Of a stretch of DNA of 64,000 nucleotides, positions 6,590-25,388 are shown piece after piece. Source of the stretch: Petrimonas sp. (GTDB taxonomy: Bacteria; Bacteroidota; Bacteroidia; Bacteroidales; Dysgonomonadaceae); the NCBI GenBank assembly GCA_012839475.1, contig DUNG01000020.1:186001-250000 (forward strand). The letters are read 5' to 3'. A program made the position numbers and the translations under genes. Each line of letters begins with the position of its first letter. Position 1 is the stretch's first letter. Below the pieces are notes generated by a model, which made no database searches, was not told where the DNA came from, and saw only the letters and a program-made list of their open reading frames with translations.

Positions 6590-6642
6590 TACTGAGGGAG
6601 ACGGGAGACGGGAGATCGTGAACGAAAGATGAACAAGAATTG

Positions 6643-7335
6643 ATGCTGAGATATATTCATAAAGAGGGAAAGCCCGCGCTGGCGAAGATGTTTATCGTGC
6701 TGTTGATACTCAACGGTGTGCTACTTCTATGCCTGCCCAGCCACTGGCTCCCGATTACCGTCCTCGCAATATCGATCGTACTGTTCGCGATAACCCTCTA
6801 CTTCTACCGACAACCGCGCCGGGTGTACCAGGGAGAGCTACACGGGCTGGTGAACACACCTACAGACGGCAAGGTGGTGGTGATAGAAAAAGTGTTCGAG
6901 AAGCAGTTCTTTAACGAAGAACGCATTCAGGTCTCTATCTTCATGTCGCTCTTCAACGCCCACGCCAACTGGGTGCCGGTGAGCGGCAAGATTACCCACC
7001 TGTCACACGTGGCGGGAAATTTTTGGGCGGCCTACCTCCCCAAATCGAGCCACGAGAACGAACATACCAACATCGTTATCGAGACCCTCAACAACGGTAG
7101 CATCCTGACGAAACAGATTGCCGGTGCCATCGCCCGAAGGATTGTCACCTACGTGAGCGAGGGCGAAGAGGTGACTATCGGCTCTCAGCTGGGGTTCATC
7201 AAGCTAGGCTCACGGATGGATATCTTCCTACCCGTCGATAGCGAAATAATGGTGAAGCTGGGTGAACAGGTGCGGGCCAATGTCACCGTTTTGGCCCGAT
7301 TGCCCGAAGTCAAATCGCCCGAAATCAAACGATAA
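6643..7335 (+). CDS. psd: Phosphatidylserine decarboxylase (short, archaetidylserine-decarboxylase-like type)
   Basis: The enzyme removes CO2 from phosphatidylserine to give phosphatidylethanolamine at the inner membrane. The 230-residue protein has two N-terminal membrane segments (about 14-50) and the autocleavage motif LGSRMD. Ser190 would become the pyruvoyl prosthetic group after cleavage between Gly and Ser. The short form with GSR rather than LGST is usual in Bacteroidetes. A TTG codon directly precedes the chosen ATG. pssA follows after six bases, so the two successive steps of phosphatidylethanolamine synthesis are linked. Confidence 0.95.
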   Translation: MLRYIHKEGKPALAKMFIVLLILNGVLLLCLPSHWLPITVLAISIVLFAITLYFYRQPRRVYQGELHGLVNTPTDGKVVVIEKVFEKQFFNEERIQVSIFMSLFNAHANWVPVSGKITHLSHVAGNFWAAYLPKSSHENEHTNIVIETLNNGSILTKQIAGAIARRIVTYVSEGEEVTIGSQLGFIKLGSRMDIFLPVDSEIMVKLGEQVRANVTVLARLPEVKSPEIKR

Positions 7336-7341
7336 ACCAGT

Positions 7342-8130
7342 ATGCGAAAGCAGATTCCCAACCTACTCACGCTCCTCAACCTCCTCTCGGGTTGTGTTGC
7401 GATCACGCTGGCGTTCCAAGGGCGCTTCACGGGCGTGGCCATCGCCGTGCTAATCGCCGCCCTGTTCGACTTCCTGGACGGCATGGCGGCCAGGCTACTG
7501 AATGCTTACTCGCTGCTGGGGAAAGAACTGGACTCGCTGGCAGACGTGGTAAGCTTTGGAGTGGCGCCCGCCTCGGCACTTTTCGTCTTCTTAAGGGATG
7601 GTCTGTTACGCCCCGGTGGAGCGCTATCCACGGATGGCACGCTGTTACCAGGTGACTCACTGCTCCCGGGTAACCCTCAACTCCTTGAAAGTACACTGCT
7701 CCCCGCACCCCTTCTGACCATTATCCCTTACCTGGCATTCTTGATCCCGCTTTTCTCGGCCTACCGACTCGCCAAATTCAATATCGACGAGCGCCAATCC
7801 CGCTCCTTCCTGGGCCTGCCCACGCCGGCCAACGGCCTGTTCTGGGTCGGCTATTGCCAAGGTATCCACACCCTGCTACCGATTGCGGGGCAAGCTCTGT
7901 TGTACATCACCCTCGGCTTCCTTATCCTGCTCACCCCACTTATGGTCACCGAGTTGCCCATGTTTTCCCTGAAGATGGATCGGTTCGCGGTAAAAGGTTA
8001 CGAACGACAACTGCTGCTCGCGGTGCTGGTTATCGCCTTCGTCGCCCTGTGGGGATTCGTGGGCATCGCCATGGGGGTACTCGCATACATCCTGCTCTCG
8101 CTTATTCCGCACCCCAACGCCAAATATTAA
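7342..8130 (+). CDS. pssA: CDP-diacylglycerol--serine O-phosphatidyltransferase
   Basis: PssA makes phosphatidylserine from CDP-diacylglycerol and serine, feeding the decarboxylase encoded just upstream. It is a 262-residue polytopic membrane protein. The CDP-alcohol phosphotransferase signature is complete: DG..AR near 46-51, then G..., D and D in the spacing DG-x2-AR-x8-G-x3-D-x3-D. Residues about 85-122 form an unusual loop rich in LLPG/LLES-like repeats, between two membrane helices. The loop does not touch the catalytic motif. Confidence 0.94.
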
Positions 8131-8303
8131 GGCGGCTCACTAACGACCAATCACGCCCACCGTACGAAACGCCCCCTACAAGAGTGCATACCAATCCTTA
8201 CCGCTGTCTCTTTCGGCCGGGAAATTGTTAAATAATATAAACCGGTTAGAGAAGCTAGTAGGAACGTTGTATCTTTACTGTGTAATCGAACTTATTGCCA
8301 TTT

Positions 8304-8558
8304 ATGGGGGTCATTATTAAATTTTTCCTGTTCTTTCTCGTTACCTATCTTATTTTAAGGTCGATAGGGAGGTTGCTGTTTGGTATACGCTACAAACAGA
8401 ACAGCTTTCGCCACGGGACTCCCCGCGGTAGACAACCTCGTCGGGAATCACCCAAACAGCCTGAAACACAACAAGACAGGATTATCGGCTACCAAAAGAA
8501 AAACTTTGAATCGACCGAGGTGGAGGATGCCGAATTCGTGGAGATCAAAGAGAAGTGA
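8304..8558 (+). CDS. Small DUF4834-like membrane protein
   Basis: The 84-residue protein starts at ATG 8304 with one N-terminal membrane helix (about 3-22). A basic, Pro/Gln/Arg-rich stretch follows, then an acidic tail. This is the architecture of the Bacteroidetes DUF4834 family, whose function is unknown. A TTG at 8295 in the same frame is a weaker start. The 170-base gap after pssA contains the sequence TATCTTTA (about 8269-8276), one base off a Bacteroidetes -7 box, so it may have its own promoter. Confidence 0.65.
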   Translation: MGVIIKFFLFFLVTYLILRSIGRLLFGIRYKQNSFRHGTPRGRQPRRESPKQPETQQDRIIGYQKKNFESTEVEDAEFVEIKEK

Positions 8559-8579: not shown

Positions 8580-8610
8580 TTGCATTATCAGCCATTTTTG
8601 GTTATTTTTG
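8580..8610 (+). promoter_or_regulatory. Bacteroidetes sigma-ABfr-type promoter of the sulfonolipid operon
   Basis: A -33 element TTG (8580-8582) and a -7 box TATTTTTG (8603-8610) are separated by exactly 20 bases, matching the Bacteroidetes consensus. Transcription would start near 8616, about 40 bases ahead of the ATG at 8657. The site separates the following operon from the nusA-pssA block. Confidence 0.8.
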
Positions 8611-8656
8611 CATGGAGATCATTGGGAAAATCATTCACATCATATAAGAAATCAGT

Positions 8657-9919
8657 ATGACAGACATTTTTGATCGGTTAAAAAGTGCCGAAGGTCCGCT
8701 CGAGCAGTATCGCAAAAAAGCGGAGGGGTACTTCATGTTCCCCGAATTGGAAGGGGAGATTGCCCCTAGGATGAAGTTCCTCGGCAGAGAAGTAATCACC
8801 TGGAGTTTAAATAATTACCTGGGACTAGCCAACCACCCGGAAGTACGCGAGGCGGATGCCAAGGCCGCGGCCGATTGGGGTATGGCCTACCCCATGGGCG
8901 CGCGGATGATGTCGGGACAAACAAAGTTGCACCGTGAACTGGAAGAGAAACTCGCCCGGTTCGAGAAGAAAGAGTCGGCCTACCTGCTCAACTACGGCTA
9001 CCAGGGCATGGTCTCCATCATCGACTCCCTGGTCACCCGGAACGACGTGATCGTGTACGACTCCGAGTCGCACGCCTGCATCATGGACGGCATCTTCCTC
9101 CACAAGGCCAAAGGAGGCAAAAGCTACGTCTACCCGCATAACGACATGGAGCGGTGCGACAGGATGCTGGGCTTCGCCACCCGCCAAGCCAAAGAGAACA
9201 ACGGCGGCATCCTGCTCATCACCGAAGGGGTGTTTGGCATGTCGGGCGACCTGGGCGACCTCCCGGGGATTCTCAAACTGAGGGAGAAGTACGATTTCAG
9301 GCTGATGATCGATGACGCCCACGGCTTTGGCACCATGGGCGAGACCGGAGCGGGTGTCAGCGAGCATTTCGGGGTGATGGACGAGGTGGACATCTACTTC
9401 GCAACCTTTGCCAAGTCGATGGCTGGTATCGGAGCATTCGTTGCATCTGAGAAGGCGATTGTGGACTCGCTCAAGTACAACATGCGGTCGCAAATCTTCG
9501 CAAAATCCCTTCCCATGCCGATGGTCGTGGGCGCACTCAAGCGGCTGGAGATGCTCCAAACGCAACCCCAGCACAGAGAGAACCTCTGGAAGGTAGCCAA
9601 AATGCTGCAAGAGGGACTGGTCGCCGAAGGGTTTAACATCGGCAATACCCAGTCGCCCGTCACGCCGGTCTACCTGAGCGGCACCGTGGCGGAAGGTACC
9701 AACGTGGTAGTCGACCTCCGCGAGAACCACCACGTGTTTTGCTCTATCGTGGTCTACCCGGTGGTTCCCAGGGATGTGATCATGCTCCGGCTAATACCCA
9801 CCGCATCGCACACCAAGAGGGAAGTAGAGGAGACCATTGAAGTATTCAAGAAAATCAAGGCCAACCTGGATGCCGGGAAGTATAAAGCAGACGAGGTGCA
9901 GTCGATGGCAGTCTCGTGA
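8657..9919 (+). CDS. Alpha-oxoamine synthase, probable cysteate C-acyltransferase (sulfonolipid synthesis)
   Basis: This PLP enzyme condenses an amino acid with an acyl thioester with loss of CO2. The 420-residue protein has the full fold: the substrate-side MGARMMSG motif, YDSESHA (PLP-stacking His), DDAHGFG (PLP-nitrogen Asp) and TFAKS with the PLP lysine at 253. Homologues include serine palmitoyltransferase, KBL, BioF and the cysteate acyltransferase of capnine synthesis. The next gene looks like cysteate synthase and the third is a ketoreductase, so cysteate is the likelier amino-acid substrate. Serine palmitoyltransferase is the main alternative. Its stop overlaps a possible GTG start of the next gene. 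Confidence 0.72.
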   Translation: MTDIFDRLKSAEGPLEQYRKKAEGYFMFPELEGEIAPRMKFLGREVITWSLNNYLGLANHPEVREADAKAAADWGMAYPMGARMMSGQTKLHRELEEKLARFEKKESAYLLNYGYQGMVSIIDSLVTRNDVIVYDSESHACIMDGIFLHKAKGGKSYVYPHNDMERCDRMLGFATRQAKENNGGILLITEGVFGMSGDLGDLPGILKLREKYDFRLMIDDAHGFGTMGETGAGVSEHFGVMDEVDIYFATFAKSMAGIGAFVASEKAIVDSLKYNMRSQIFAKSLPMPMVVGALKRLEMLQTQPQHRENLWKVAKMLQEGLVAEGFNIGNTQSPVTPVYLSGTVAEGTNVVVDLRENHHVFCSIVVYPVVPRDVIMLRLIPTASHTKREVEETIEVFKKIKANLDAGKYKADEVQSMAVS

Positions 9920-9936
9920 TTAAAAAACCTAACACC

Positions 9937-11271
9937 ATGCTTCGAGTAAAAATTCAAAACAAGTACACCTTAACCTGTACCCAGTGCGGGACGGAAACCC
10001 CCAATTTCTGGACCTGGTTCGATCAGGGGCAGCAATGCCCCAAGTGCGGTAGCAAGCACTCCGAAGTTTCGTATAACCGTAGGTATCAACGGTTGCCCCG
10101 CATCATCAAGCGCACGCCCAACAGTTTCTGGCACTACTTCCCCTTCCTGCCGCTGTTGCGCAGACGTCACATCGTGAGCAAGGGGGAAGGAGCCATCCCC
10201 CTGGAGCGGTGGACCTTCTTAGAGGAATTCGCGAAGAGAGAACACGGGCTCAACATTCAAGTGCACGTCTATCGAAACGACCTGAACGGGGGCACCGGGA
10301 CCTTCAAGGACATCGCAGCCTCATTGGCTGCCAGCCTCTTCAAGGAGATCGGTATCAATCAGTACTGCATCGCCTCCACCGGTAACTCGGCCACGGCCTA
10401 CGCCATGTACCTCTCCATGGCTGGCGTCAACTGCTCCGTCTTCATGCCGGAAGATGCCCTAAAGGCCTCCGAAGCCACCATTAGCTCCTACGGGCAACAG
10501 GTCTTCCGGGTGATGGGCGACTACGCCAAGGCGAAGGAGATTGCCGCGGGATACGCCGCGGCCCACAACATACCTATTTCGGCCGGTAACATAGACCCCA
10601 TACGGGTAGAAGCTAAAAAGACGATGGTCTTCGAGTGGCTCCGCCAGATAGACCAGATACCCGATGTCTATATCCAGGCGGTGAGCGGTGGCACGGGCCC
10701 CATCGCCATCGATAAGGGGATACGTGAGATCAAAACCATCTACCCCGAGTTGAAGAACCCCCGCTTCCTGCTGGTACAGACCGACAAGTGCGACCCCATG
10801 GTTCAAGCGTGGGAAACGGCAGAAGCAGCCGGTTTCCCCAAAGGGTTCGAGAAGAACTACCCCATCATCGAAAATCCCCAGACCGAGGTTCCCACCTTAG
10901 CCACCGGCAACCCGGGTACCTACCCCATCGTGGCGAAGCTGGTGAAGGAGTCGGGAGGAAGCTTCCTGCGGATGCGGGAAGAGAAGCTCCTGCCCGTTGG
11001 CAAGCTGATGGCCTACGAGAAGAAGGTAATACCCGGACCCGCCTCGGCGGTCTGCATGGCCGGATTCTTCATCGCCCTTAAAAAGAACCTGATTAAAGAT
11101 GGGGAGACGGTGCTTGTGAACATCGGGGAGGGAGCCAACCGTGCGCCCTACTTCCTGGAACAGATGATCTACACCACGCGTAACGTGAAAAATGTAGAAG
11201 AGTGCTCGCCGCACGTCATCGACGACTACCGGGCACAACTCTGGAAGGAAGTGCTGGAGGAGGATGAATGA
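9937..11271 (+). CDS. Probable cysteate synthase (threonine-synthase-like, PLP-dependent)
   Basis: The protein belongs to PLP fold type II. Archaeal cysteate synthase, a threonine-synthase relative, uses O-phosphoserine and sulfite to make cysteate. From ATG 9937 it has 444 residues. It shows an N-terminal zinc-ribbon-like pair (CTQC near 13 and CPKC near 37), the PLP-lysine motif GGTGTFKD with K124, STGNSA for phosphate binding and a C-terminal NIGEGANR. A GTG at 9916 would overlap the previous stop by four bases and is an alternative start. The ordinary pathway neighbours of threonine synthase (thrA, thrB) are absent, while a lipid-type acyltransferase and reductase flank it. Plain threonine synthase is the alternative. 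Confidence 0.72.
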   Translation: MLRVKIQNKYTLTCTQCGTETPNFWTWFDQGQQCPKCGSKHSEVSYNRRYQRLPRIIKRTPNSFWHYFPFLPLLRRRHIVSKGEGAIPLERWTFLEEFAKREHGLNIQVHVYRNDLNGGTGTFKDIAASLAASLFKEIGINQYCIASTGNSATAYAMYLSMAGVNCSVFMPEDALKASEATISSYGQQVFRVMGDYAKAKEIAAGYAAAHNIPISAGNIDPIRVEAKKTMVFEWLRQIDQIPDVYIQAVSGGTGPIAIDKGIREIKTIYPELKNPRFLLVQTDKCDPMVQAWETAEAAGFPKGFEKNYPIIENPQTEVPTLATGNPGTYPIVAKLVKESGGSFLRMREEKLLPVGKLMAYEKKVIPGPASAVCMAGFFIALKKNLIKDGETVLVNIGEGANRAPYFLEQMIYTTRNVKNVEECSPHVIDDYRAQLWKEVLEEDE

Positions 11272-12059
11272 AGAACGGTAAAACGATATGGATCACGGGG
11301 GCATCGTCAGGCATTGGCGAGGCGTGTGCTTACCTGTGGGCCAAGGAGAAGGCCAACCTCATCCTCACCGCAACCCGCGTGGAGCGGCTAATCGAGGTAC
11401 AAGAAGCGTGCATCCGCCTGGGGGCACAGTGCGAGGTGCTGCCCTACGACCTGTCCGACTTAGCGGGCATTGATGGGTTGACCGACCAGGCAATCGGCCT
11501 CTTTGGAAGCATCGACATCGTGTTCCTCAACGCCGGCATCAGCCAGCGTGCCCGTGCCCTGGATACCTCGTACAGCGTGGACAAGAAGATCATGGACGTC
11601 AACTTCTTCGCCCCGGTAAAGATCGCGAAACGGCTTCTGCCCACGATGATCGCCAACGGGGGCGGCACGGTAGCGGTCACCACCAGTATCTCGGGTAGGT
11701 TTGGCTTCCCGCTGCGCTCGGCCTACGCGTCGTCAAAGTTCGCGTTGTACGGCTTTTTTGAAACTGTTCACGCTGAATATTACGACCAGAATATCCGGGT
11801 GGTAATGGTTTGCCCCGGGCGGGTAAAGACCAACATCTCCTACAACTCGCTGAAAGGCGATGGCCAAAAGCATGGCCAAATGGACGATGGGCAGGCAGGT
11901 GGCATCTCTTCGGAAAAGGCGGCACGAAAAATCGCACGGGCTATCCAACGCCAAAAACCGGAGGTGCTGGTAGGTGGGAAAGAACTGCTGATGGTATACA
12001 TCAAGCGGTTCCTGCCGGGAGTGGCAAGGAAAATAGTGAGGAAAATCAAGGCAACGTGA
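11268..12059 (+). CDS. Short-chain dehydrogenase/reductase, probable 3-oxo-sulfonolipid reductase
   Basis: This is a classical SDR of 263 residues. It has the NADP(H) motif GASSGIG (about 11-17), the NAG motif, a catalytic Ser in TTSISG and YASSK (Tyr/Lys pair near 149-153). The C-terminus is basic and partly hydrophobic, suggesting membrane association. Reductases of this type follow alpha-oxoamine synthases in sphingoid-base and capnine synthesis, reducing the 3-keto group. Its ATG overlaps the upstream stop by four bases (11268-11271), so it belongs to the same operon. The exact substrate is inferred from context. Confidence 0.72.
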   Translation: MKNGKTIWITGASSGIGEACAYLWAKEKANLILTATRVERLIEVQEACIRLGAQCEVLPYDLSDLAGIDGLTDQAIGLFGSIDIVFLNAGISQRARALDTSYSVDKKIMDVNFFAPVKIAKRLLPTMIANGGGTVAVTTSISGRFGFPLRSAYASSKFALYGFFETVHAEYYDQNIRVVMVCPGRVKTNISYNSLKGDGQKHGQMDDGQAGGISSEKAARKIARAIQRQKPEVLVGGKELLMVYIKRFLPGVARKIVRKIKAT

Positions 12060-13427: not shown

Positions 13428-14954
13428 ATGAGGAAAAAAGCATTACTGATGATTTTAGACGGTTGGGGCATTGGCGACCAATCCGAGGCAGATTTAATCT
13501 ACAACACCCCTACCCCATACTGGGACAAACTATTGGCTACTTACCCGAACGCGTACTTGCTGGCATCCGGCGAAAACGTGGGTTTGCCTGACGGCCAAAT
13601 GGGTAACTCGGAAGTGGGCCACCTGAATATCGGTGCGGGACGGGTGGTCTATCAGGATTTGGTGAAAATCAACCGGGCTTGTCGCGATAACAGCATCCTT
13701 GACAATCCCAAAATCATTAAAGCCTATTCATATGCACGTGATCATAAGAAAAAAATCCACCTGCTCGGGCTGGTTTCTGACGGTGGCGTACACAGCTCAT
13801 TGGAACATCTGTTCAAGCTGATTGATATCGCGAAAGAGTACGGCGTTGAAGATACTTACGTTCACGCGTTTATGGATGGACGTGACACCGACCCGAAAAG
13901 TGGGAAAGGCTTTATCGAGCAACTTCAAAACCACGTTGATAAAACAACGGGAAAAATCGCTTCCATCGTCGGCCGTTACTACGCGATGGACCGCGACAAG
14001 CGCTGGGAACGTATAAAAGAGGCGTACGACCTCTTGGTTAGCGGCGTGGGAACACCCGCGACCGACATGGTTCAGGCCATGCAAAACTCTTACGACAACG
14101 GGGTTACCGATGAGTTTATCAAACCAATCGTTCACGTGGATGCCGATGGCAATCCCGTGGCCACCATCGAAGAGAACGATGTGGTGATCTTCTTTAACTT
14201 CCGCAACGACCGCGCGAAGGAGATGACCATCGTTCTCACGCAAGAAAACATGCACGAGCACGGTATGCACACCATCCCGTTGCAGTATTTCACGATGACG
14301 CCTTACGACAGCACGTTTAAAGGGCTGCATGTACTTTTTGATAAGGACAACGTGGAAAACACGATGGGCGAATACGTTTCCAACCTTGGCCTGAAGCAGC
14401 TGCGTATAGCAGAAACCGAGAAGTTCGCACACGTGACGTTCTTCTTCTCAGGTGGACGCGAAGCGGAATTCCCGGGTGAAGAGCGCATCCTTGTCCCGTC
14501 TCCCAAGGTGGCCACGTACGACTTGAAGCCGGAGATGAGCGCACCCGAAGTGGCCAACGAGATGGTGAAAGCACTTGATTCTCAAAAATACGACTTTATC
14601 GTGCTAAACTTTGCAAACGGCGATATGGTGGGACATACCGGTGTGAAAGAGGCGATTATTGAAGCGGTTAAGGTAATCGATAAGTGTGTAGAGAAAGTGA
14701 TTGAAGCGGTAAAGGCGAATGACTATGAAGCCATTATCATTGCCGACCACGGGAATGCCGATAACGCCATCAATCCCGATGGTTCACCCAACACGGCGCA
14801 TTCGTTGAACCCGGTGCCACTGGTTTACGTGACGAAAGAGAAAAACGCGACCGTTGAACCCGGTATTTTGGCTGACGTGTCGCCCACGCTTTGCCAGGTG
14901 ATGGGCCTTGATGTTCCGAAAGAGATGACGGGAAAACAGTTGATTACCTTTTAA
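13428..14954 (+). CDS. gpmI: 2,3-bisphosphoglycerate-independent phosphoglycerate mutase
   Basis: The enzyme interconverts 3- and 2-phosphoglycerate in glycolysis using two Mn ions and a phosphoserine intermediate. The 508-residue length is typical. It has the N-terminal [10 protein letters not shown] metal site, the nucleophile Ser near 61 in [14 protein letters not shown], and the C-terminal metal sites ADHGNAD and [11 protein letters not shown] single-gene unit is likely: it has its own -7 box upstream and a strong hairpin downstream. Confidence 0.98.
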
Positions 14955-14973
14955 ACAAGCTGCCGCCTTTTCG

Positions 14974-15019
14974 CTCAGTATATTGCGGATAAATGGCAAA
15001 TTATCCGCAACATACTGAG
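14974..15019 (+). terminator. Long hairpin after gpmI (probable terminator)
   Basis: Arms of 19 bases (14974-14992 and 15001-15019) pair with a single mismatch around an 8-base loop, 19 bases after the gpmI stop. An AT-rich run with several T follows. The stem is longer than most intrinsic terminators. Confidence 0.75.
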
Positions 15020-15230
15020 GATAATTTAATTTTTACGCTTACCCGTTTAGGAACATTCGTTTAATTCCAATTAGGAACATTCGATTAGTCCAATTTTAGA
15101 GCAGGATCGGTAAAGATATCGTTCCTGCTTTTTGCTGATAATTTTCACGCCCAAAAAAAGAGACTCCTGTTGGTCAACATATAGACGCGACGGGGAAACT
15201 GTTTTACCGGAAAGGCAAATCTAATACCAA
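15020..15230. other. Gene-free stretch at the left edge of the accessory island
   Basis: Between the gpmI hairpin and the first 120-bp repeat there is no credible complete gene. It holds a 23-base tandem repeat (15047-15093). From about 15151 an open frame without a start runs into the direct repeat and ends at 15321; it reads like the C-terminal remnant of a lost gene (motifs GQHIDATGK and WMKQYLFNN). I do not recognise the parent family. Confidence 0.6.
15047..15093 (+). repeat. Two tandem copies of a 23-24 bp repeat
   Basis: Copies at 15047-15070 and 15071-15093 both begin TTAGGAACATTCG and end CCAA, differing at a few central bases. The function is unknown. Confidence 0.75.
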
Positions 15231-15231
15231 C

Positions 15232-15352
15232 AAGGTTGCTACTAAGAAGGTTGTTACTAAGAAAGTTGTTTCTGATCCGGTAATGACGCTATGGATGAAA
15301 CAGTACCTATTTAACAACTGAAAATCCTTTCCACTTTTTGGAGCTGGTACAA
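15232..15352 (+). repeat. Left copy of ~120-bp direct repeat flanking hicAB
   Basis: This 121-base segment is nearly identical to 16076-16197. The shared part encodes the same C-terminal peptide (…DPVMTLWMKQYLFNN then stop), including KV(V/I)TK repeats, and continues past the stop to CACTTTTTGGAGCTGGTAC. Both copies therefore derive from the 3' end of one gene. Confidence 0.9.
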
Positions 15353-15380
15353 AATAACATGAAAGCAGTTGCTTTTTTTC

Positions 15381-15410
15381 TTGCCGTTGATAGTATTTTT
15401 ACTATCTTTG
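15381..15410 (+). promoter_or_regulatory. hicAB promoter with palindromic operator
   Basis: A -33 TTG (15381-15383) and a -7 box TATCTTTG (15403-15410) are 19 bases apart. A perfect inverted repeat, GATAGTA and TACTATC (15389-15395 and 15400-15406) with a TTTT centre, overlaps the -7 box. It is well placed for repression by the HTH-bearing HicB. Confidence 0.8.
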
Positions 15411-15440
15411 TGATGTCGAGCAATAACTAATTACAATGCA

Positions 15441-15635
15441 ATGAAAAGATACAAGGTAAAAGAAGTTATAGTCCTACTATTAAAAGATAATTGGTTTATT
15501 GCTCGTCAAAGGGGAAGTCATAGGCAATTTAAGCACCCGACAAAAAAAGGTACAGTTACAATAAACGGAAAACCTAATGAAGTTTTAGATCAATTTGTTT
15601 TAAATAGCATTTGGAAACAAGCAGGTTGGCGATAA
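15441..15635 (+). CDS. hicA: HicA-type mRNA interferase toxin
   Basis: The 64-residue protein matches HicA (YcfA) in size and layout. It has a dsRBD-like fold with the catalytic His in RGSHRQFKHP (about 26-35) and a VTINGKPNEV strand. HicA toxins cleave mRNA in a translation-independent manner. The antitoxin gene follows after 25 bases. ATG 15441 is favoured, 31 bases after the -7 box. Confidence 0.9.
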   Translation: MKRYKVKEVIVLLLKDNWFIARQRGSHRQFKHPTKKGTVTINGKPNEVLDQFVLNSIWKQAGWR

Positions 15636-15660
15636 GTCCCTTGCACAAATTAATAAAAAA

Positions 15661-16062
15661 ATGGAGAAACTGATTGCAAAAATAGGATATGCAGATCGTA
15701 ATTATAGCGCGCTTGTTGAATTGCCGGACGAGGTGGTGGTGGTTACCCATAGCACGTTAGAGGGCGTGAAAAACGCGGTTATTGAATCGTTAGAATTTTC
15801 AAAAGAAGGACATTTGGAAAGTGGAAAAAACGTGCCGGCTTGGGTAAACGATTATGAAGTGGAATATGAATTAGAAGTTTCGGCACTTTTACAATATTTG
15901 GATGGAATTTTAACCCGGTCGGCACTGTCGCGTGTAACCGGCATTAATGAACGTCAACTTGGGCATTACGCTACCGGACATCGCAAACCACGGGCAAAGC
16001 AGCGTGAGAAAATCATTAACGGCATTCGTCGCATAGGCGAAGAGTTTCTATCTGTCGTGTGA
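15661..16062 (+). CDS. hicB: HicB-type antitoxin with C-terminal HTH
   Basis: The 133-residue protein has a degraded RNase H-like HicB domain (about 1-65) that should neutralise HicA. A C-terminal helix-turn-helix (about 80-125, SALSRVTGINERQLGHYATG) would bind the operator inside the hicA promoter. The toxin-first order is normal for hicAB. Its stop is only 13 bases ahead of the right direct repeat. Confidence 0.88.
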   Translation: MEKLIAKIGYADRNYSALVELPDEVVVVTHSTLEGVKNAVIESLEFSKEGHLESGKNVPAWVNDYEVEYELEVSALLQYLDGILTRSALSRVTGINERQLGHYATGHRKPRAKQREKIINGIRRIGEEFLSVV

Positions 16063-16075
16063 GTTGTTGTTTGAA

Positions 16076-16197
16076 AAGGTTATTACTAAGAAGGTTGTTA
16101 CTAAGATCATTGTTTCTGATCCGGTAATGACGCTATGGATGAAACAGTACCTCTTTAACAACTAAAAATTAGTGTCCACTTTTTGGAGCTGGTACAA
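16076..16197 (+). repeat. Right copy of ~120-bp direct repeat flanking hicAB
   Basis: This segment matches 15232-15352 with scattered substitutions. It retains the same C-terminal coding remnant, ending in a stop near 16162. The hicAB pair and its promoter lie exactly between the two copies. Confidence 0.9.
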
Positions 16198-16213
16198 CAA
16201 GCGTACAACAAAA

Positions 16214-16276
16214 CATCAAAAACGAACAGCAAAATGCATCAAAGACGAACAGCGAAATACATCAAAAACGAACAAC
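16214..16276 (+). repeat. Three-copy 23-bp tandem repeat upstream of DUF4143 fragment
   Basis: Units start at 16214, 16237 and 16260, each beginning CATCAAARACGAACARC; the third is incomplete. The array ends 49 bases ahead of the open frame at 16326, a position like that of a protein-binding array. Confidence 0.85.
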
Positions 16277-16325
16277 GCCCTTGTTTCATTAAAATAATAA
16301 ACGTAACTTTCCTCTATAAGTTGAA

Positions 16326-16883
16326 ATGGAGGGTACTTCAATGACAACGTTTAACAGTTACGTGAAGGCTTTAGAAAAACTGTTCGTTATCGAAGACATA
16401 GAGGCGTGGTCGCCTGCTATTCGTTCAAAAACGGTTATTAGAACCGGAAAAAAGCGCTGCTTCATCGACCCCTCGATAGCCGTGGTCGCCTTGGGTGCCT
16501 CTCCACGTAGCCTGGAGCTTGACTTGAAAACGTTTGGCTTTATTTACGAATGTCTCTGTATGCGAGATCTGAAAATATACTCACAATCATTGGGCGGGAG
16601 ATTATCATATTATCACGATAAATATGGGTTGGAAGCTGACGCGGTTCTTCATCTCGATGACGGCAGGTACGCGCTGATTGAGTGCAAGCTTGGTAGTAGA
16701 GACATAGATGCCGGGGCTAACAATTTGTTGAAGCTAAAAGAGCTCGTAACCGAAAGAAATAACAGAGATAAGCAGGTATCTATGAGGCTCCCCGATCTGC
16801 TGATAATATTGACCGGGGGAAAAATTGCCTACACGAGAGAAGATGGCGTAAAAGTGATTCCACTGGGTTGTTTGAAAGATTAA
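16326..16883 (+). pseudogene. C-terminal remnant of a DUF4143 ATPase
   Basis: The 185-residue open frame matches only the C-terminal part of AAA_14/DUF4143 proteins. It has the winged-helix end (YVKALEKLFVIEDIEAW) and the PD-(D/E)XK-like module with E..AVLHL and IECKLG. Intact members have roughly 380-450 residues with an N-terminal P-loop ATPase, absent here. ATG 16326 has no good promoter, and the upstream bases do not encode the missing part. It may still be translated; a fragment is the simplest reading. Confidence 0.7.
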
Positions 16884-16917
16884 GCAAAAAAGCGTTGTTA
16901 CCAAATCTCATCAGGGC

Positions 16918-17005
16918 ACCCCTACAATGAACCAAAAAACACCCAATTTTACCCCTGCAATGAGCCAAAAACAGCCAACATTACCCCTGCAATGAAACAT
17001 TTTGC
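16918..17005 (+). repeat. Three-copy ~32-bp direct repeat upstream of the intact DUF4143 ATPase
   Basis: Units begin at 16918, 16951 and 16983, each with ACCCCTRCAATGARMC followed by an A-rich stretch; the last is shortened and runs into the -7 box. The array sits directly against the promoter of the ATPase at 17039, so a regulatory role is plausible. Confidence 0.8.
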
Positions 17006-17006
17006 T

Positions 17007-17014
17007 TATATTTG
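17007..17014 (+). promoter_or_regulatory. -7 box of DUF4143 ATPase gene
   Basis: TATATTTG fits TAnnTTTG 25 bases ahead of the ATG at 17039. No TTTG is found 20 bases upstream; the direct repeats occupy that position. Confidence 0.6.
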
Positions 17015-17038
17015 CATTGAAAATCAAATTATTATTCA

Positions 17039-18376
17039 ATGTTTAAGCGAAATATAGAAGCCCGACTACATAAATGGGCAAAAAGTCCCTATCGAAAACC
17101 GCTGATCTTGCGTGGAGCAAGACAGGTAGGAAAGACAACCGTGGTTAATCAATTCGCGGAAAACTTCGAGAACTTTATTTCCATCAATCTCGAAAAGTCC
17201 GCGGCTAAAAACCTTATAGAAAGCGTAGATGAAGTGAAAAAGTTGCTCCCCCTACTCTTCCTTTATGCCAATAAAACACGAAAAGAAGGACGTACTCTGC
17301 TGTTTTTTGATGAAATTCAAAACTCCGCACATACCGTCTCACTACTGCGCTATTTCTATGAAGAGACTCCCGAGATTCACGTTATTGCCGCGGGATCACT
17401 TTTAGAGACGATGTTAGACAAGCAGATCTCATTGCCCGTGGGACGAGTGGAATACATGGCCCTTCATCCATGCTCCTTCTCCGAATATTTAGTCGCTATA
17501 CATGAAAACGGACTTTTGCAGGCAATCAACGAGAAGGAAAGTGTCAATGTATTTCATCAACCACTCATTGAACATTTCGAGCGTTATGCCCTTATCGGCG
17601 GAATGCCCGAGGTGGTTGCCCGATACACTACCGAACGTGATATCGTCGCGCTTTCCAAAACCTATAACGAATTGTTGAACGCCTACAAAAACGACGTGGA
17701 AAAGTATGCTGAGACCAACACTCAAGCAGCCGTCATTCGTTATATCCTTGAGGAGGGATGGACTTTTTCGGGACAAACCATAACCTTGGGTGGATTTGCC
17801 GGATCGCCATACAGAGCGCGTGAAACCAGTGAAGCATTTCGCACGCTCAACAAAGCCATGTTGTTGGAATTAGTCTACCCCACTACCAATACCATAATGC
17901 CCGCGGTATCCGACCTTAAAAAAGCACCCAAACTGTTTTGGCTCGATGCCGGTATAGTGAATTACGCTGCCGGCATTCAACGAGAGTACCTATTGCATAA
18001 AGACCTAATGGATACGTGGCGTGGTAACGCCGCGGAACAAATTGTCGCACAGGAGTTGAAAGCACTATCCAATGACGTGGGTTTCAAACGAAACTACTGG
18101 CGCCGCAACAAACGTGGCAGTACCGCGGAAGTCGATTTCGTGTGGATTCAAGATGGGCTGATTATCCCAATAGAAGTGAAAAGCGGACACAACGCCCATC
18201 TAAAATCGATTCATCAATTTATGAATGAAACCAATCACGATGTGGCGGTGAGGGTTTGGTCGGGTAAATTCAGCATTGATGATGTTAAAACCAATGCAGG
18301 AAAGTGTTTCAGGTTGATTAATCTACCCTTTTATCTAATTTCAAAACTACCTGAAATATTGGAGGAAACAATCTAA
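17039..18376 (+). CDS. AAA_14/DUF4143 family ATPase
   Basis: The 445-residue protein has an N-terminal P-loop ATPase with Walker A GARQVGKTT (about 25-33) and Walker B LLFFDEIQ (about 90-97). A wing region follows, then the C-terminal DUF4143 nuclease-like module (DFVW...IPIEVKSG near 375-395). The family is abundant and variable in Bacteroidetes, and its cellular role is not established. The E-x-K arrangement resembles PD-(D/E)XK enzymes, but activity is unproven. It is one of three related genes in 4 kb. Its upstream direct repeats suggest its own regulation. Confidence 0.9.
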   Translation: MFKRNIEARLHKWAKSPYRKPLILRGARQVGKTTVVNQFAENFENFISINLEKSAAKNLIESVDEVKKLLPLLFLYANKTRKEGRTLLFFDEIQNSAHTVSLLRYFYEETPEIHVIAAGSLLETMLDKQISLPVGRVEYMALHPCSFSEYLVAIHENGLLQAINEKESVNVFHQPLIEHFERYALIGGMPEVVARYTTERDIVALSKTYNELLNAYKNDVEKYAETNTQAAVIRYILEEGWTFSGQTITLGGFAGSPYRARETSEAFRTLNKAMLLELVYPTTNTIMPAVSDLKKAPKLFWLDAGIVNYAAGIQREYLLHKDLMDTWRGNAAEQIVAQELKALSNDVGFKRNYWRRNKRGSTAEVDFVWIQDGLIIPIEVKSGHNAHLKSIHQFMNETNHDVAVRVWSGKFSIDDVKTNAGKCFRLINLPFYLISKLPEILEETI

Positions 18377-18976
18377 ATATTTGAAGTTCAACAATATTCA
18401 TAACTGCAAAGTACAACGCAACGGAAAGGAAGTAACCCGTAAATCGGATGAGCACTTAGACTTTTAATTTTCAAACAATAAAGCTATCTCATCCGGGATA
18501 ACAACAAAAGGTGGGAAAACACGAACTTGCTCATCAAAAGAAGATGCCATTAATGCAATAACTTGAAAGAATGCACTAGTTTTTCCAGTATCCATAAATA
18601 AACGGTTTTAAAAGACAATTCTTAAGCTATACTATTTTCTGTACGATAAATTAAACAGGTGAAGCCTTACATCAAGTTCTCGTTAAGCAAAGTTCATTCT
18701 TTCTTCGTATCTTTCCAGCTTGGGTAATGATTGAATTCGTTAGGATTTGCCAGTAGCGACTTGTTTCTACTTTCATTTTTTTATTTTTTCTTCAATGTAC
18801 ACGGAGTGAAAAAACGCGAATGCAGCTATCAACAGTCCAATGATAAAAAGGATAACACTCTTGTGTTCTCGAATAAATATGATAATTTTATTCATTTTCC
18901 ATGCCTTTTTATTCCCCATTTTGTTGTTTACAAACAACAGTTTTTTGATTTATTGTTGTCCGGAGCAACAGTTTGC
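18377..18976. other. AT-rich 600-bp stretch with gene debris
   Basis: The two flanking ATPase genes converge here. A 103-codon open frame on the plus strand (18731-19042) has composition typical of chance AT-rich frames and overlaps the end of the minus-strand ATPase, so it is not called. On the minus strand, 18464-18595 reads 43 residues ending in DEIALLFEN and a stop; it looks like the C-terminus of a lost gene. No promoter or terminator was recognised. Confidence 0.5.
18464..18595 (-). pseudogene. Possible small ORF or 3' gene remnant
   Basis: ATG 18595 opens a 43-codon frame with a protein-like composition (MDTGKTSAFFQV start, IPDEIALLFEN end). A stop lies five codons upstream of the ATG. 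I do not recognise the family. It may be a remnant of a gene otherwise lost from this island. Confidence 0.3.
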
Positions 18977-20131
18977 CTAAAACAGGTCTACAATGTTATT
19001 CCAAGCGATAACCTTTCCTTCTTTCCTAACTTGAGGAGTTAAACCGCCATAAATAAGGTAGGGCACTGCCTGAGCGTTCAATTTCCCGTAATAATCGAGT
19101 CCCTTAAAAAAATCTGAAGAGATAGTCGAAGATGATTTTATCTCTATACTTTTCACTTGAAGTCCCGAATCAATCAGACAATCCACCTCGTTACCGGTAG
19201 AATCGCGCCAGTAATATAACGGGGGAACGATAGCCCTGTTGTAATGATACTTCATTAAATCAGAAACAACCAAATTCTCAAAGAGAGCCCCCCTGGCCCA
19301 ATGGGTGGCCAATTCGCGCTCATTGCGTATACCCAACAGGCTGCAAGCAAGACCGGTATCATAAAAGTAAAGCTTGGGAGTTTTCAGGATCCTCTTCGAG
19401 AAATTTTGGAAATGGGGCCGAAGCACAAACGTTATAAAACTGCTTTCTAAAATGGAAAACCAGGACTTCACCGTCTTCAAATCTACGCCCAACTCATTGG
19501 CAATATGGCTGTAGTTTAGCAACTGGCCTATCCTCCCCGCGGCCAAACGCATGAACCGTTGAAACTGGTACAGGTTACCCACATTAACTACCTGTCTCAC
19601 ATCACGTTCGACATAGGTTTGAATATAGGATGGGTAAAAAAGCGTGGGGTGGATGTCGGCATCGTGTAAACGAGGATAAAATCCTTGAAAGATGCTTGTT
19701 TCAAAATTATCAATCGCTTGCCCTGACGCTCTTAATTCAGCAATGCTCAAGGGCAATAGGTGCGTAACAAAAACCCTGCCTGCCAGCGATTGGGAGATCT
19801 TTTCTAAAAGCAGGAAGTTCTGAGAACCGGTTAAAATATATTTGCCCGGCCTGTTTGCCTCATCGCTTGCGGTCTGAATATAGGAAAACAGATCGGGATA
19901 ACGCTGCGCTTCGTCAATAATTACCCCCGATTGAAATTGAGATAAAAACAGACGAGGATCGGATACCGCCGCTTCAAGCGTATCGGGATTTTCTAAGTTC
20001 ACGTACGCATAATCGGGAAAAGTAAGGCGGGCAAGGGTAGTTTTACCCGACTGTCGGGGACCGGTTATCGAAATAATGGGCATCTTTGACGCCATATCTC
20101 GCAGTAGTTGGCTAAGTTCTCGTTGTATCAT
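18977..20131 (-). CDS. AAA_14/DUF4143 family ATPase
   Basis: The 384-residue protein has Walker A GPRQSGKTT (about 23-31), Walker B GVIIDEAQRYP (about 90), a sensor-like LTGSQNF and a C-terminal DUF4143 module with DSTGNEVDCLID...SIEIKSS. It belongs to the same superfamily as the gene at 17039 but is only distantly similar in sequence. The start at 20131 lies four bases after a minus-strand TATCTTTG box, so the mRNA may be leaderless. A 17-bp-arm palindrome sits just upstream. The biological function is unknown. Confidence 0.9.
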   Translation of the reverse strand: MIQRELSQLLRDMASKMPIISITGPRQSGKTTLARLTFPDYAYVNLENPDTLEAAVSDPRLFLSQFQSGVIIDEAQRYPDLFSYIQTASDEANRPGKYILTGSQNFLLLEKISQSLAGRVFVTHLLPLSIAELRASGQAIDNFETSIFQGFYPRLHDADIHPTLFYPSYIQTYVERDVRQVVNVGNLYQFQRFMRLAAGRIGQLLNYSHIANELGVDLKTVKSWFSILESSFITFVLRPHFQNFSKRILKTPKLYFYDTGLACSLLGIRNERELATHWARGALFENLVVSDLMKYHYNRAIVPPLYYWRDSTGNEVDCLIDSGLQVKSIEIKSSSTISSDFFKGLDYYGKLNAQAVPYLIYGGLTPQVRKEGKVIAWNNIVDLF

Positions 20132-20194: not shown

Positions 20195-20267
20195 TAAAAT
20201 GAACCGAACCAGCTAAAAAAACAGGAAAACACGCAATTTTTCGGCCATTTTGCAGTTATAGGTAGTG

Positions 20268-21440
20268 ATGAAGAAACAGCCATTCTTTCGCATGCGAAGA
20301 AAGTCCGCTGGCGAGTTGCTACATGCGGTAAAGACGAAGCAACGATTCATAGGGTTACTCTTCCCGTTCTTCTGTTGCGCATTCACTATGCAGGCGCAAT
20401 GGGATGCCTCGTGTGACCAGTACTGGGCGACACGCAGCATCTCCAACCCATCGTTTGCCGGGGAGACGGGAGCTATCCGGGCAGTGGCATTCTACCGCAA
20501 GCCGTGGAGCGGCCTGTCAGTCGATATGCCCTTCGAATTCCTGGGGAGACGGCACGGTATCGGGCTGTTCACGCAGATCGTGAAAGCTGAAATGGACGGG
20601 ACAGACGGCATGACCGGAACGGCAGAAACGGTCGGTAAGAGCGGGGGACTCGGAACGTCTCACCGGACGGAGGCACCCCGCAACACCTTGATGGCCGCAC
20701 AATACAGCTTCAAGCAGGAGGTGGGCAAAGGATTCCTCAACGTGGGACTTCAAGCCGGGCTCTACGAGGTAACGTTTAACGCGGGCGATCGTACGAGTAT
20801 CACCACCTCCCTCTCATCGAGCCAGGGGGGCAACGTGTCGGCTCGGGGCAACAAGAAATTGTTCGACGCGGGAGCCGGTATCTCTTGGACGGCACCCTCG
20901 TATTTTGTCGGTTTTTCACTCTTGCATATAAACCAACCCAAGCTCCAGTCATACAACCGGGAAATCGCTCACGAAAATGCGAGCGACCTACCACAACAAT
21001 CAGACCTTCATCAACCTTCAGGCCCCCCGCAACTATCAGGCCTCTCACAACCACCAGTCCTCTCACAACTATCGACAGGGTCGAATGACTCCCTCGTTTC
21101 ATACATTCCACGCGCCTATAATTTCATGGCGGGGTACAATATTCAATGGCTTCAACCGTTAGAGATACAACCGATGGTGTGGTTGCGAAACAGCTCGGGC
21201 AAGACGACGGTAGACGCCACGCTTCGACTGGAGTACGACAAAAAGTTCTCGGCGGGTGCCTCCTGGCGCATAGAGCAGGGGTACGTGGTTTTCGCGGGCA
21301 TCAACATTAAAGGGATAGAAGTAGGATACGCTTATGGGCGGCACACCAAAACCAACCACGAGCTGTACCTCCGGTATCAGTTCCCGCTGGAAGCCTTCAA
21401 ACCGAAACGGCAACCCCATAAAAGCATTCGGTTACTGTAA
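20268..21440 (+). CDS. porP: PorP/SprF-family type IX secretion outer-membrane protein
   Basis: PorP/SprF proteins are outer-membrane beta-barrels of the type IX secretion and gliding machinery. The 390-residue protein has a long basic N-terminus followed by a hydrophobic segment ending in AQ, then the family's opening signature (W..S.DQYW..RS..NPSFAG). It ends with barrel strands and the YRYQFPLE-like terminal motif. Residues about 238-272 form a Pro/Gln/Ser/Leu-rich insert. The start is uncertain: GTG 20265, ATG 20268 or the later Met at 20292. gldK follows after 17 bases. Confidence 0.88.
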   Translation: MKKQPFFRMRRKSAGELLHAVKTKQRFIGLLFPFFCCAFTMQAQWDASCDQYWATRSISNPSFAGETGAIRAVAFYRKPWSGLSVDMPFEFLGRRHGIGLFTQIVKAEMDGTDGMTGTAETVGKSGGLGTSHRTEAPRNTLMAAQYSFKQEVGKGFLNVGLQAGLYEVTFNAGDRTSITTSLSSSQGGNVSARGNKKLFDAGAGISWTAPSYFVGFSLLHINQPKLQSYNREIAHENASDLPQQSDLHQPSGPPQLSGLSQPPVLSQLSTGSNDSLVSYIPRAYNFMAGYNIQWLQPLEIQPMVWLRNSSGKTTVDATLRLEYDKKFSAGASWRIEQGYVVFAGINIKGIEVGYAYGRHTKTNHELYLRYQFPLEAFKPKRQPHKSIRLL

Positions 21441-21457
21441 GACGAGAATAAGATCAA

Positions 21458-22864
21458 ATGAATAATCATTTATCAATGAGAAGATACATTTTTTTCGCAC
21501 TGTTGCTGTTACTCACGGTCGCCTCCTGCGGGAGAAGGGGCATCGGGAGCAGCGTCGGGGGCGAACTCACCGGGGTGCCGGTCGGCAAGGTATGGAGCGA
21601 GCCGACCCCCTACAACATGGTGCTAATATCGAGGGGCTCCTACACGATGGGGGCGGGCCAGATCGACTCCCTTTGGGGCATCACCATCCCCTCCCGCAGG
21701 GTATCGGTGGACGATTTCTGGATGGACGAGACCGAGATTACCAACTCGCAATACAAGCAGTTCGTTTACTGGGTACGCGACTCCATCATCCGAGAACGGC
21801 TGGCGGATCCGGCCTACGCGGGCGATGACTTTTACAAGATCACCGAGGACGAATACGGCGAACCCATCACCCCCCGCCTCAACTGGTCGCTCCCCATCCC
21901 CTGGAAGCTCAACACCGAGGAGGAAGAGGCGGCCATCAACAGCCTCTACACCACCCATCCCATCACCGGTAAAACCATGCTGGACGTCCGCCAGTTGAAC
22001 TTCCGCTACGAATGGTTCGACGCGGCAGAGGCGGCACGCGAGCAATACGGGCTCGGCCCGACGGGGCTGACTCCTAACGGGGAAGGGGCAGGCAGCCGAA
22101 ATGAAACCGTGCTTATCACGAAAGACACGGCCTACATCGCCCCGGATGGACGCATCGTGAACGAGACCATCACCCGCCCGTTTAGCGGACTATATGACTT
22201 CGTGCATACCCGCATCGTGAACATTTACCCCGATACCACCTGCTGGGTGAATGACTTCCCTGAGGCGGACAACGAACGCTACCTGCGCCACTACTTCTCG
22301 CACCCCGCCTACGCGCACCACCCGGTGGTGGGTGTCTCGTGGGAGCAAGCCACCGCCTTTTGCGCATGGCGCACCCTCTTCCTCCGCCGAAGCATCAACC
22401 GGGAAGACGTGATCGTTGAGCGGTACCGGCTGCCGACCGAAGCAGAATGGGAGATGGCGGCCCAAGACAGCGAGATCATCAACGAGAGTGGCTGCTTTCA
22501 GGCCAACTTCAAATCGGGCGACGGGGGATACGCCGCGGATAATCACCTGATTACCGCCAAGGTGAGGAGCTTCAAGCCCAACCTGTACGGGCTATACGAT
22601 ATGGTGGGAAACGTGGCAGAGTGGACCGCCACCGATTATACCGAAGCGGGCAACAAGCTAATGGGCGATATAAACCCACAGTACCGCCGTAACCCATCGG
22701 GAGACGACTTCCACCCGACCCACCGAAAAGTGGTAAAAGGAGGATCGTGGAAAGATATTTACCCCTTTATCCGCCCTGACCTACGCGATAGCGAACAGCC
22801 TAACCAAGGGCGATCCTATATCGGCTTCCGTTGCGTCCGCACGCGGGTAAGCACGGGAGATTAA
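21458..22864 (+). CDS. gldK: GldK/PorK lipoprotein of the type IX secretion system
   Basis: This 468-residue lipoprotein has a signal peptide ending in a lipobox (TVAS-C near residue 24) and a formylglycine-generating-enzyme (SUMF1-like) fold. Landmarks are YTMGAGQ near 65, DFWMDETEITNSQY, PVVGVSWEQATAFCAW, RLPTEAEWE and the terminal YIGFRCVR. GldK/PorK and GldN/PorN form the periplasmic ring of the T9SS. The order porP-gldK-gldL-gldM-gldN is the standard T9SS locus. Confidence 0.96.
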   Translation: MNNHLSMRRYIFFALLLLLTVASCGRRGIGSSVGGELTGVPVGKVWSEPTPYNMVLISRGSYTMGAGQIDSLWGITIPSRRVSVDDFWMDETEITNSQYKQFVYWVRDSIIRERLADPAYAGDDFYKITEDEYGEPITPRLNWSLPIPWKLNTEEEEAAINSLYTTHPITGKTMLDVRQLNFRYEWFDAAEAAREQYGLGPTGLTPNGEGAGSRNETVLITKDTAYIAPDGRIVNETITRPFSGLYDFVHTRIVNIYPDTTCWVNDFPEADNERYLRHYFSHPAYAHHPVVGVSWEQATAFCAWRTLFLRRSINREDVIVERYRLPTEAEWEMAAQDSEIINESGCFQANFKSGDGGYAADNHLITAKVRSFKPNLYGLYDMVGNVAEWTATDYTEAGNKLMGDINPQYRRNPSGDDFHPTHRKVVKGGSWKDIYPFIRPDLRDSEQPNQGRSYIGFRCVRTRVSTGD

Positions 22865-22902
22865 TCGAAAACCACGGCAAAAATCAAACAATAAGCGAAC
22901 CT

Positions 22903-23805
22903 ATGAACGCCTATAGCAAATACAAGAACCGACTGGAACAGTTTCTCCAGACCGAACGGGGAAAACGGTTTATCCACTTCGCCTACAGCATCGGCGCCGC
23001 CATCGTCATCCTCGGCGCCATGTTCAAGATCCTCCACCTCCCCTTTGGCAACGAAATGCTATTTATTGGCATGACGACCGAAGTGATCGTGTTCATCCTG
23101 TCGGCATTCGACCGACCGGTGCAGGACTACGCGTGGGAGGAGGTCTTCCCGGTACTGAGCGGGAAAGGGGCGATTACCGGGGAACCAGTCAGTAAACAGC
23201 CATTTCCCGTGGAGCAAATGAGTAGGGAAACGGCGGCAAGAGAGCCTTTTGCTGGAGAGACAATCGCCAGAGGACCGATTGTCGAGGGGCCAATTACCAG
23301 AAGCCCAATCGTCAAAGAACCTGTCTCCGGAGAACCTTTCGATAGAGGAGCAGCCATTAGAGAACCGATGACAAGAGAATCTGAAACCCTTCGGCATGAT
23401 CTCTCATCAACCAGCGAAGAGTATGGTCGACAGATGGAGAGCCTGAATCGCACGCTATCGGGCCTCAACTCCCTCTACGAAGTGCAACTCAAGAACATCA
23501 GCGGCCAGCTCGGCACCATCGAGCAGATCAACGCGGGACTGAACCGTCTCCGCTCGGTGTATAGCGATGCCCTACCCGACGGGACCTCCATCAAAGAGGA
23601 GACGGACAAGATGGCACGGCAACTCAAGGAGTTAAACGATGTCTACGGACGTATGCTGCACGCCATGACGGTACACGGTGGGAACTATCCCGCCAGTCGC
23701 GATGATTATTTTACGCGCAACAACGAGAACAGGGATGACCACCGTTCTCAACGGGGCGACGACCACACGTACCGTAACGACAACCCTTCGTATAACCGTC
23801 CATAA
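22903..23805 (+). CDS. gldL: GldL/PorL inner-membrane motor protein of the T9SS
   Basis: GldL and GldM form the inner-membrane proton-driven motor that powers type IX secretion. The 300-residue protein starts at ATG 22903. Two membrane helices lie at about 24-44 and 50-66; the first ends in the conserved MFKILHLPFG. A long cytoplasmic part has coiled-coil stretches (about 165-255). Between them, about 85-160, is an irregular repetitive linker rich in REPF/GPI/EPV units, and a polar Asp/Asn/Arg tail ends the protein. The membrane and coiled-coil parts identify the family firmly. Confidence 0.93.
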   Translation: MNAYSKYKNRLEQFLQTERGKRFIHFAYSIGAAIVILGAMFKILHLPFGNEMLFIGMTTEVIVFILSAFDRPVQDYAWEEVFPVLSGKGAITGEPVSKQPFPVEQMSRETAAREPFAGETIARGPIVEGPITRSPIVKEPVSGEPFDRGAAIREPMTRESETLRHDLSSTSEEYGRQMESLNRTLSGLNSLYEVQLKNISGQLGTIEQINAGLNRLRSVYSDALPDGTSIKEETDKMARQLKELNDVYGRMLHAMTVHGGNYPASRDDYFTRNNENRDDHRSQRGDDHTYRNDNPSYNRP

Positions 23806-23817
23806 ACCAACCGAGCC

Positions 23818-25368: not shown

Positions 25369-25388
25369 ACCATTCAAACAAAAACAGT

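Follow-up and report, generated by a model that had tools for sequence, protein, structure and literature searches.

What does a short operon of Petrimonas sp. make, and which of its enzymes would supply the cysteate needed for a sulfonolipid? The operon lies in a stretch of 64,000 nucleotides (contig DUNG01000020.1, positions 186,001 to 250,000; hereafter the window), in which a first-pass annotation, made from the sequence alone, had read three genes as a probable operon for capnine, the sulfonolipid base. Our sequence-based analysis makes capnine biosynthesis a very probable role, with predicted substrates and products. The pathway is already known; its first enzyme appears to be of an undescribed third kind. 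The elements concerned are the following:

8580..8610, + strand: Bacteroidetes-type promoter TTG-N20-TATTTTTG, its last base 46 bases 5' of the synthase ATG
8657..9919, + strand: alpha-oxoamine synthase, predicted cysteate acyl(-ACP) transferase of the SulA/CapB type (ACP, acyl carrier protein), 420 aa
9916..11271, + strand: threonine-synthase-like fold II pyridoxal-phosphate (PLP) enzyme with zinc ribbon, designated CapA3 here, probably a third type of cysteate synthase, 451 aa from GTG
11268..12059, + strand: short-chain dehydrogenase/reductase (SDR), probable 3-ketocapnine reductase (KCR/CapC role) by position and class motifs, 263 aa
12193..13302, + strand: two-domain vicinal oxygen chelate (VOC) protein of glyoxalase/dioxygenase fold, candidate fourth pathway gene, 369 aa

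In the predicted route, the PLP enzyme would exchange the phosphate of O-phospho-L-serine for sulfite to give L-cysteate, the synthase would join cysteate and acyl-ACP with loss of CO2 to form 3-ketocapnine, the SDR would reduce this to capnine with NAD(P)H, and some N-acyltransferase would finish the lipid. The open reading frames (ORFs) and translations of the first three genes were confirmed, as were the motifs noted earlier (PLP Lys253 of the synthase, the zinc ribbon and YASSK). The earlier statement that the three activities match the pathway in kind and order held for their kind; the genes are arranged CapB-CapA-CapC, which is not the order of the reactions. The capnine assignment itself was borne out by enzyme types, key residues, gene order and co-inheritance. 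Gene order was surveyed in the best 80 of 244 relatives, named loci in a sample biased to close relatives: the nearest showed 97% and 96% identity, followed by Proteiniphilum and similar organisms (P. acetatigenes DSM 18083, 85%), which makes Proteiniphilum or close kin the probable origin of the window. The SulA gene lay upstream of that of the PLP enzyme in 69 of the 77 loci with room for it, and 39 of 61 loci held all four genes. No N-acyltransferase was recognised when the 30 most frequent neighbour clusters of these 80 loci were inspected by eye.

By its sequence the synthase is of the SulA/CapB type, and it is predicted to use cysteate and acyl-ACP. Its best relatives in the PDB were 7u7h, the SulA of Alistipes finegoldii (E 4.6e-167), and 28eh, a cysteate-C-fatty acyltransferase (E 8.5e-164), the matches to serine palmitoyltransferase (SPT) structures being far weaker (E 2.4e-71). 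Identity with the Alistipes enzyme reached 60.7% over 407 aligned residues, and both share the PLP lysine (Lys253, within TFAKS; Lys251 in SulA) and a diagnostic lysine (K283; Lys281 in SulA). The latter has been described as an active-site residue that distinguishes SulA from SPT, where it is Ala (PMC9304779, in part). The two other alpha-oxoamine synthases of the same genome carried Ala (SPT) and Asn (Kbl) at this site; the Kbl gene adjoins a threonine-dehydrogenase-like gene (the name is our own reading). Across the loci read, all 103 SulA-like ORFs had the SulA lysine and 102 had the PLP lysine, the remaining one being partial.

Sphingolipids are made with the same superfamily and SDR class, and the genome does encode an SPT. 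The operon might accordingly be read as one for sphingolipids, with the synthase as SPT, the SDR as 3-ketosphinganine reductase and the PLP enzyme as incidental. However, the true SPT is a different gene (L002, G000:C30), which scored 670 bits against NF047600, the Bacteroidota-type SPT family (cut-off 640); the window synthase shares superfamily and reaction type with that family but reached 303.9 bits. With the SulA lysine and the identity to SulA added, a sphingolipid operon is highly improbable. Profile scores, PDB matches, the lysine and the separate SPT also ruled out SPT, glycine acetyltransferase and BioF as names for the synthase. As to whether it prefers serine, a check proposed in the first-pass annotation, the sequence proxy gives a SulA-like and not an SPT-like enzyme. 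In a distant family (f41), one locus (L263:2837-6349) encoded a fusion of the synthase with an AMP-binding acyl ligase and an acyl carrier domain, an arrangement consistent with acyl-ACP as donor.

Two kinds of cysteate synthase served for comparison with the PLP enzyme. CapA2 is the archaeal type, represented by TIGR03844, to which PDB entry 9k3c belongs, an entry whose title names CapA2 of A. finegoldii (no publication on this structure was found). CapA1 (9k2p, from Capnocytophaga), known in the same pathway, is CBS-like and falls on another branch of the fold II PLP enzymes. An archaeal-type cysteate synthase has been reported for Alistipes and Odoribacter (PMC10191378, in part). Since CapA2 and CapA1 are of these two types, the window enzyme, if a cysteate synthase, would represent a third one, and such a type, distinct from both, is probable. 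It carries four zinc-ribbon cysteines (21, 24, 41 and 44), invariant in 11 aligned sequences, and PLP Lys131 within TFKD. With CapA2 it shares the superfamily and eight residues found in the window clade and CapA2 only (D202, Y203, G224, Y252, Q254, A255, W299 and Y336), which the threonine synthases compared lack; unlike CapA2, the window clade retains the CxxC...CxxC zinc ribbon. Counted in the same way, the window clade shares six residues with PRK08197 proteins and five with threonine synthases (ThrS), against one with each for CapA2, so that the eight residues lend modest support. A GGTG loop was discarded as a diagnostic feature, as it is also present in PRK08197 proteins.

The window clade formed a single group in both phylogenetic trees (support 96/92 and 98/97). 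In the second tree, an unrooted split placed the window clade and CapA2 opposite ThrS and PRK08197 (99/97, with a long-branch warning), and the two were also joined in the first tree, drawn from the ThrC of the genome (95/83, same warning). Because of these warnings, a common origin of the window clade and CapA2 is suggested, not shown, by the sequences. Four sequences were left out of both trees and of the residue comparison, three because of a wrong frame (T_L186, X_L054 and X_L060) and X_L047 without good reason; the second tree further omits the long-branched ThrC of the genome and 11 similar rows. The enzyme could be named neither ThrC (below the cut-offs of TIGR00260 and NF006050, outside the ThrS clade, another ThrC in the genome), nor CapA2 (below the TIGR03844 cut-off, separate branch), nor CapA1 (threonine synthases score best by sequence, and CapA1 was matched by fold alone). 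A grouping with true threonine synthases, the outcome which according to the first-pass annotation would have spoken against its proposal, was thus not observed, the enzyme standing on a separate supported branch and the true ThrC being encoded elsewhere (312 bits, cut-off 167.1).

The distribution of the PLP enzyme was analysed in genomes that are not independent of one another, so that the p-values are descriptive. Among 101 genomes of the family (Dysgonomonadaceae), it was found in 44, SulA was found in the identical 44, and 57 had neither; G017 (E 7e-4) and G022 (E 4e-4), where the PLP enzyme matched weakly, are outside the 44. In a sample of 198 genomes of the order (Bacteroidales), 40 had the PLP enzyme and 50 had a TIGR03844 protein above cut-off, a fragment match in G598 (311.9 bits) not being counted; none had both (p 2.6e-6). 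The TIGR03844 scores of the window-type enzyme in the 40 genomes were between 94 and 134 bits. SulA, counted at E up to 1e-100, was present in 141 of the 198 genomes, including 33 of the 40 with the window type and 46 of the 50 with CapA2, and 62 SulA genomes had neither type. In a sample of 392 genomes of the phylum, 148 had SulA-type synthases (same threshold) and, the window apart, identity to the PLP enzyme did not exceed 32% among the matches listed; this sample holds five other genomes of the order, none with a match to the PLP enzyme.

Genes of the CysH, CysD and CysN types make sulfite from sulfate, and known cysteate synthases need sulfite. In two relatives of the order (G551 and G653), the PLP enzyme gene was the last of a series VOC-cysH-cysD-cysN-permease-cysQ-PLP enzyme, and a third (G593) had the same order except that an unrelated SDR separated the permease from cysQ. 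CysH, CysD, CysN and CysQ of G551 scored above curated cut-offs, and its permease carries CitMHS and TrkA_C domains. At least one sulfate-assimilation gene was found nearby in 13 of 39 order relatives, or 10 without three CysH matches at 31-33% identity. None was found in the control regions, which comprised 20 around CapA2 and 34 around SulA without the window type (13/39 versus 0/54, Fisher p 3.1e-6); of these 34, 18 came from outside the order, and region lengths differ, some contigs being short. With the 36 order controls alone the p-value was 8e-5, and with the strict 10 it was 0.001. Close relatives do not have this arrangement, as a Cys gene occurred in only 2 of the 80 named loci.

The controls differed from the window in other respects as well. 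SulA was not found near CapA2 in the 20 CapA2 regions. In the 34 SulA regions, the genes sought were nearby in six only (CapA1 in four, the Hdr-like set described below in one, VOC in one), the 9k2p-type CapA1 gene (E 2.9e-150) preceding SulA in its four cases; in the Petrimonas window, SulA is instead the first gene of the operon.

A number of observations weigh against these assignments. The PLP enzyme fell below every NCBIfam cut-off (NF006050, a threonine synthase and its top curated family, 162.6 of 303 bits; TIGR03844, 100.7 of 324.9; TIGR00260, 90.5 of 167.1), and the solved structures closest to it in sequence and fold are those of threonine synthases. Its mean identity is 25.5-27.4% with threonine synthases, against 19.4% with CapA2. 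Comparison of its AlphaFold model (predicted local distance difference test, pLDDT, 92.4) failed to separate functions, with Z-scores of 33.3-39.7 for threonine synthases, 34.4 for CapA2 and 31.4 for CapA1, and both trees were flagged for long branches. In the order sample the enrichment of SulA with the window type was weak (33/40, p 0.08), not reaching significance because SulA is so common there. Seven of the 40 genomes with the PLP enzyme had no SulA hit; several are incomplete, and one (G512) is listed as 99% complete. No sulfate-assimilation gene was nearby in 26 of the 39 order relatives, some on short contigs, nor in the window locus, beyond which the Petrimonas genome was not searched for such genes. 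Finally, the SDR belongs to a large family, and its identification as the reductase is positional.

The threonine-synthase scores and structures are also what would favor an operon in which the synthase is SulA and the PLP enzyme makes threonine or another beta-substituted alanine, cysteate coming from elsewhere. But the genome has its separate ThrC, and its occurrence in exactly the SulA genomes of the family, the exclusion from CapA2 genomes and the linkage to sulfite-producing genes in some relatives point to cysteate, so that this possibility is regarded as unlikely, and a third type of cysteate synthase stays the preferred assignment.

The SDR has the cofactor motif and the YxxxK motif of its class (YASSK at residues 153-157), and of the 75 named loci with room, 52 had an SDR gene of this kind downstream; its position makes it the probable 3-ketocapnine reductase. 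KCR/CapC (PMC11211663, in part) shares SDR class and both motifs with it, but the KCR genes of Chryseobacterium gleum and Alistipes are reported there to lie apart from the cfat and Cys genes, whereas the window SDR lies inside the operon. The part of PMC9304779 that deals with the SDR enzyme then assayed describes it as lacking genetic validation; the operon offers genetic support for an SDR in the sulfonolipid pathway.

The operon probably has a fourth gene, overlooked in the first-pass annotation, which follows the SDR and encodes a two-domain VOC protein of the glyoxalase/dioxygenase superfamily. This gene was found downstream in 41 of 62 named loci with room. In the order sample, 63 of the 198 genomes had it: 57 of these also had SulA, and the other six, in which SulA gave no hit, had the window-type enzyme. 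None of the 50 genomes lacking both carried it (hypergeometric 1.2e-10). Of the 141 SulA genomes, 57 had it (23 of the 33 containing the window type, 13 of the 46 containing CapA2 and 21 of the 62 containing neither); missing from most of them, it cannot be a general requirement for making sulfonolipids. It adjoined SulA in a CapA2 genome (G590, L283), and in the distant family f41 (G279/L263) a 52% identical VOC gene was found at 7285-8349, about 0.9 kb past the ligase/carrier/synthase fusion. The VOC protein is thus a fourth candidate for the pathway, and is probably an accessory of it. Its model (pLDDT 82) resembles 4huz (Z 24.2, root-mean-square deviation 3.1, 276 residues aligned), 3oaj and maize glyoxalase I. 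According to our own reading of the alignment, the apparent metal positions are Gln/Gln/Glu instead of His/His/Glu; distant relatives in L171 and L263 have His at the position of Gln263.

Taken as one proposal, a third cysteate synthase lineage in Bacteroidales, which in some species would receive its sulfite from a dedicated sulfate-to-sulfite operon, together with the VOC protein as an unrecognised enzyme dedicated to sulfonolipids, has about an even chance of being correct. Under it, the VOC protein would convert 3-ketocapnine or capnine in the manner of an epimerase or glyoxalase and would not be an oxygenase, because of the Gln/Gln/Glu positions and because the hosts are presumed anaerobes. 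In the open literature, titles and abstract openings among the matches listed held neither a third cysteate synthase type nor the VOC gene; a prior description is possible.

The four-base overlaps noted earlier hold for one junction: the SDR start and the PLP enzyme stop share ATGA. At the other, four bases overlap if the PLP enzyme starts at GTG 9916; aligned homologues begin close to ATG 9937, likely the true start, which leaves a gap of 17 bases. The promoter reported upstream of the synthase matches the sequence, and its element recurs in the loci of relatives: of 69 loci, 42 had TAnnTTTG within the 160 bases that precede the SulA gene (5.7 on average in shuffles, 5.4 in random windows), and 16 had it properly spaced with TTG (shuffles 0.5, random windows 1.0). 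Over the whole window, TTTG-N16-20-TAnnTTTG occurred six times against 0.64 expected from shuffles, as for Bacteroidota promoters; a sigma-70 promoter scan of the region stayed at chance level (3 found, 2.8 expected). The operon is known here from its genes, and the genome also has an SPT, both of which would suit an operon that is present but silent, no sulfonolipid being made. Intact frames, retained catalytic residues, the recurrent promoter element and conservation across genera of the family leave silence very little probability.

A true SPT beside SulA means that both lipid classes are possible in this organism. Of the 44 SulA genomes of the family, 42 gave an SPT-like match, and the ten further genomes hand-picked from these 42 all had an SPT above cut-off. 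Sulfonolipids and sphingolipids may exclude each other, as part of PMC10191378 suggests; as a matter of gene content, the joint occurrence of SulA and SPT would run against this suggestion and makes it directly testable.

Genome-based detection of sulfonolipid producers hinges on recognising the cysteate synthase. As the window-type enzyme is below all NCBIfam cut-offs and might be annotated as threonine synthase, producers could be missed. Capnine lipids have been measured in Labilibaculum (Marinifilaceae), with a CapB match at 61% and a CapA match at only 32% identity (PMC12927429, in part), the latter being in line with other CapA types. Sulfonolipids are reported, in parts of PMC9304779 and PMC11211663, to influence gliding, choanoflagellate development and inflammation.

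Upstream of the operon are three genes:

6640..7335, + strand: psd, phosphatidylserine decarboxylase, a common upstream neighbour in Proteiniphilum-type loci, outside the pathway
7342..8130, + strand: pssA-like CDP-alcohol phosphatidyltransferase (101.7 bits, cut-off 107), also a common upstream neighbour
8295-8558, between pssA and the operon: 87-aa ORF without NCBIfam or Pfam match

Both psd and pssA were confirmed; the operon does not follow them directly as had been stated, the 87-aa ORF intervening. Of the 80 named loci, 28 contained relatives of this ORF, in most cases located between the pssA and SulA genes.

Downstream, type IX secretion/gliding genes (porP, gldK with an FGE-sulfatase domain, gldL, gldM and gldN) occupy 20265-26297 of the window. 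In many Proteiniphilum-type loci porP comes immediately after the VOC gene, and gliding in other Bacteroidota is supported by sulfonolipids according to part of PMC9304779. Unlike in many relatives, gpmI and three DUF4143 proteins (two with AAA_14) lie between VOC and porP at 13428-20131, a stretch which is possibly an insertion. A heterodisulfide-reductase-like (Hdr-like) set, made up of HdrA, HdrB, HdrC and a DsrK-like protein, none of which reached its NCBIfam cut-off, accompanied SulA and the window-type enzyme in 20 of the 80 named loci and in 4 of 39 order relatives; loci with the set include L135, L137, L145, L146, L151, L286, L289, L292 and L340. The set may be a redox or sulfur partner.

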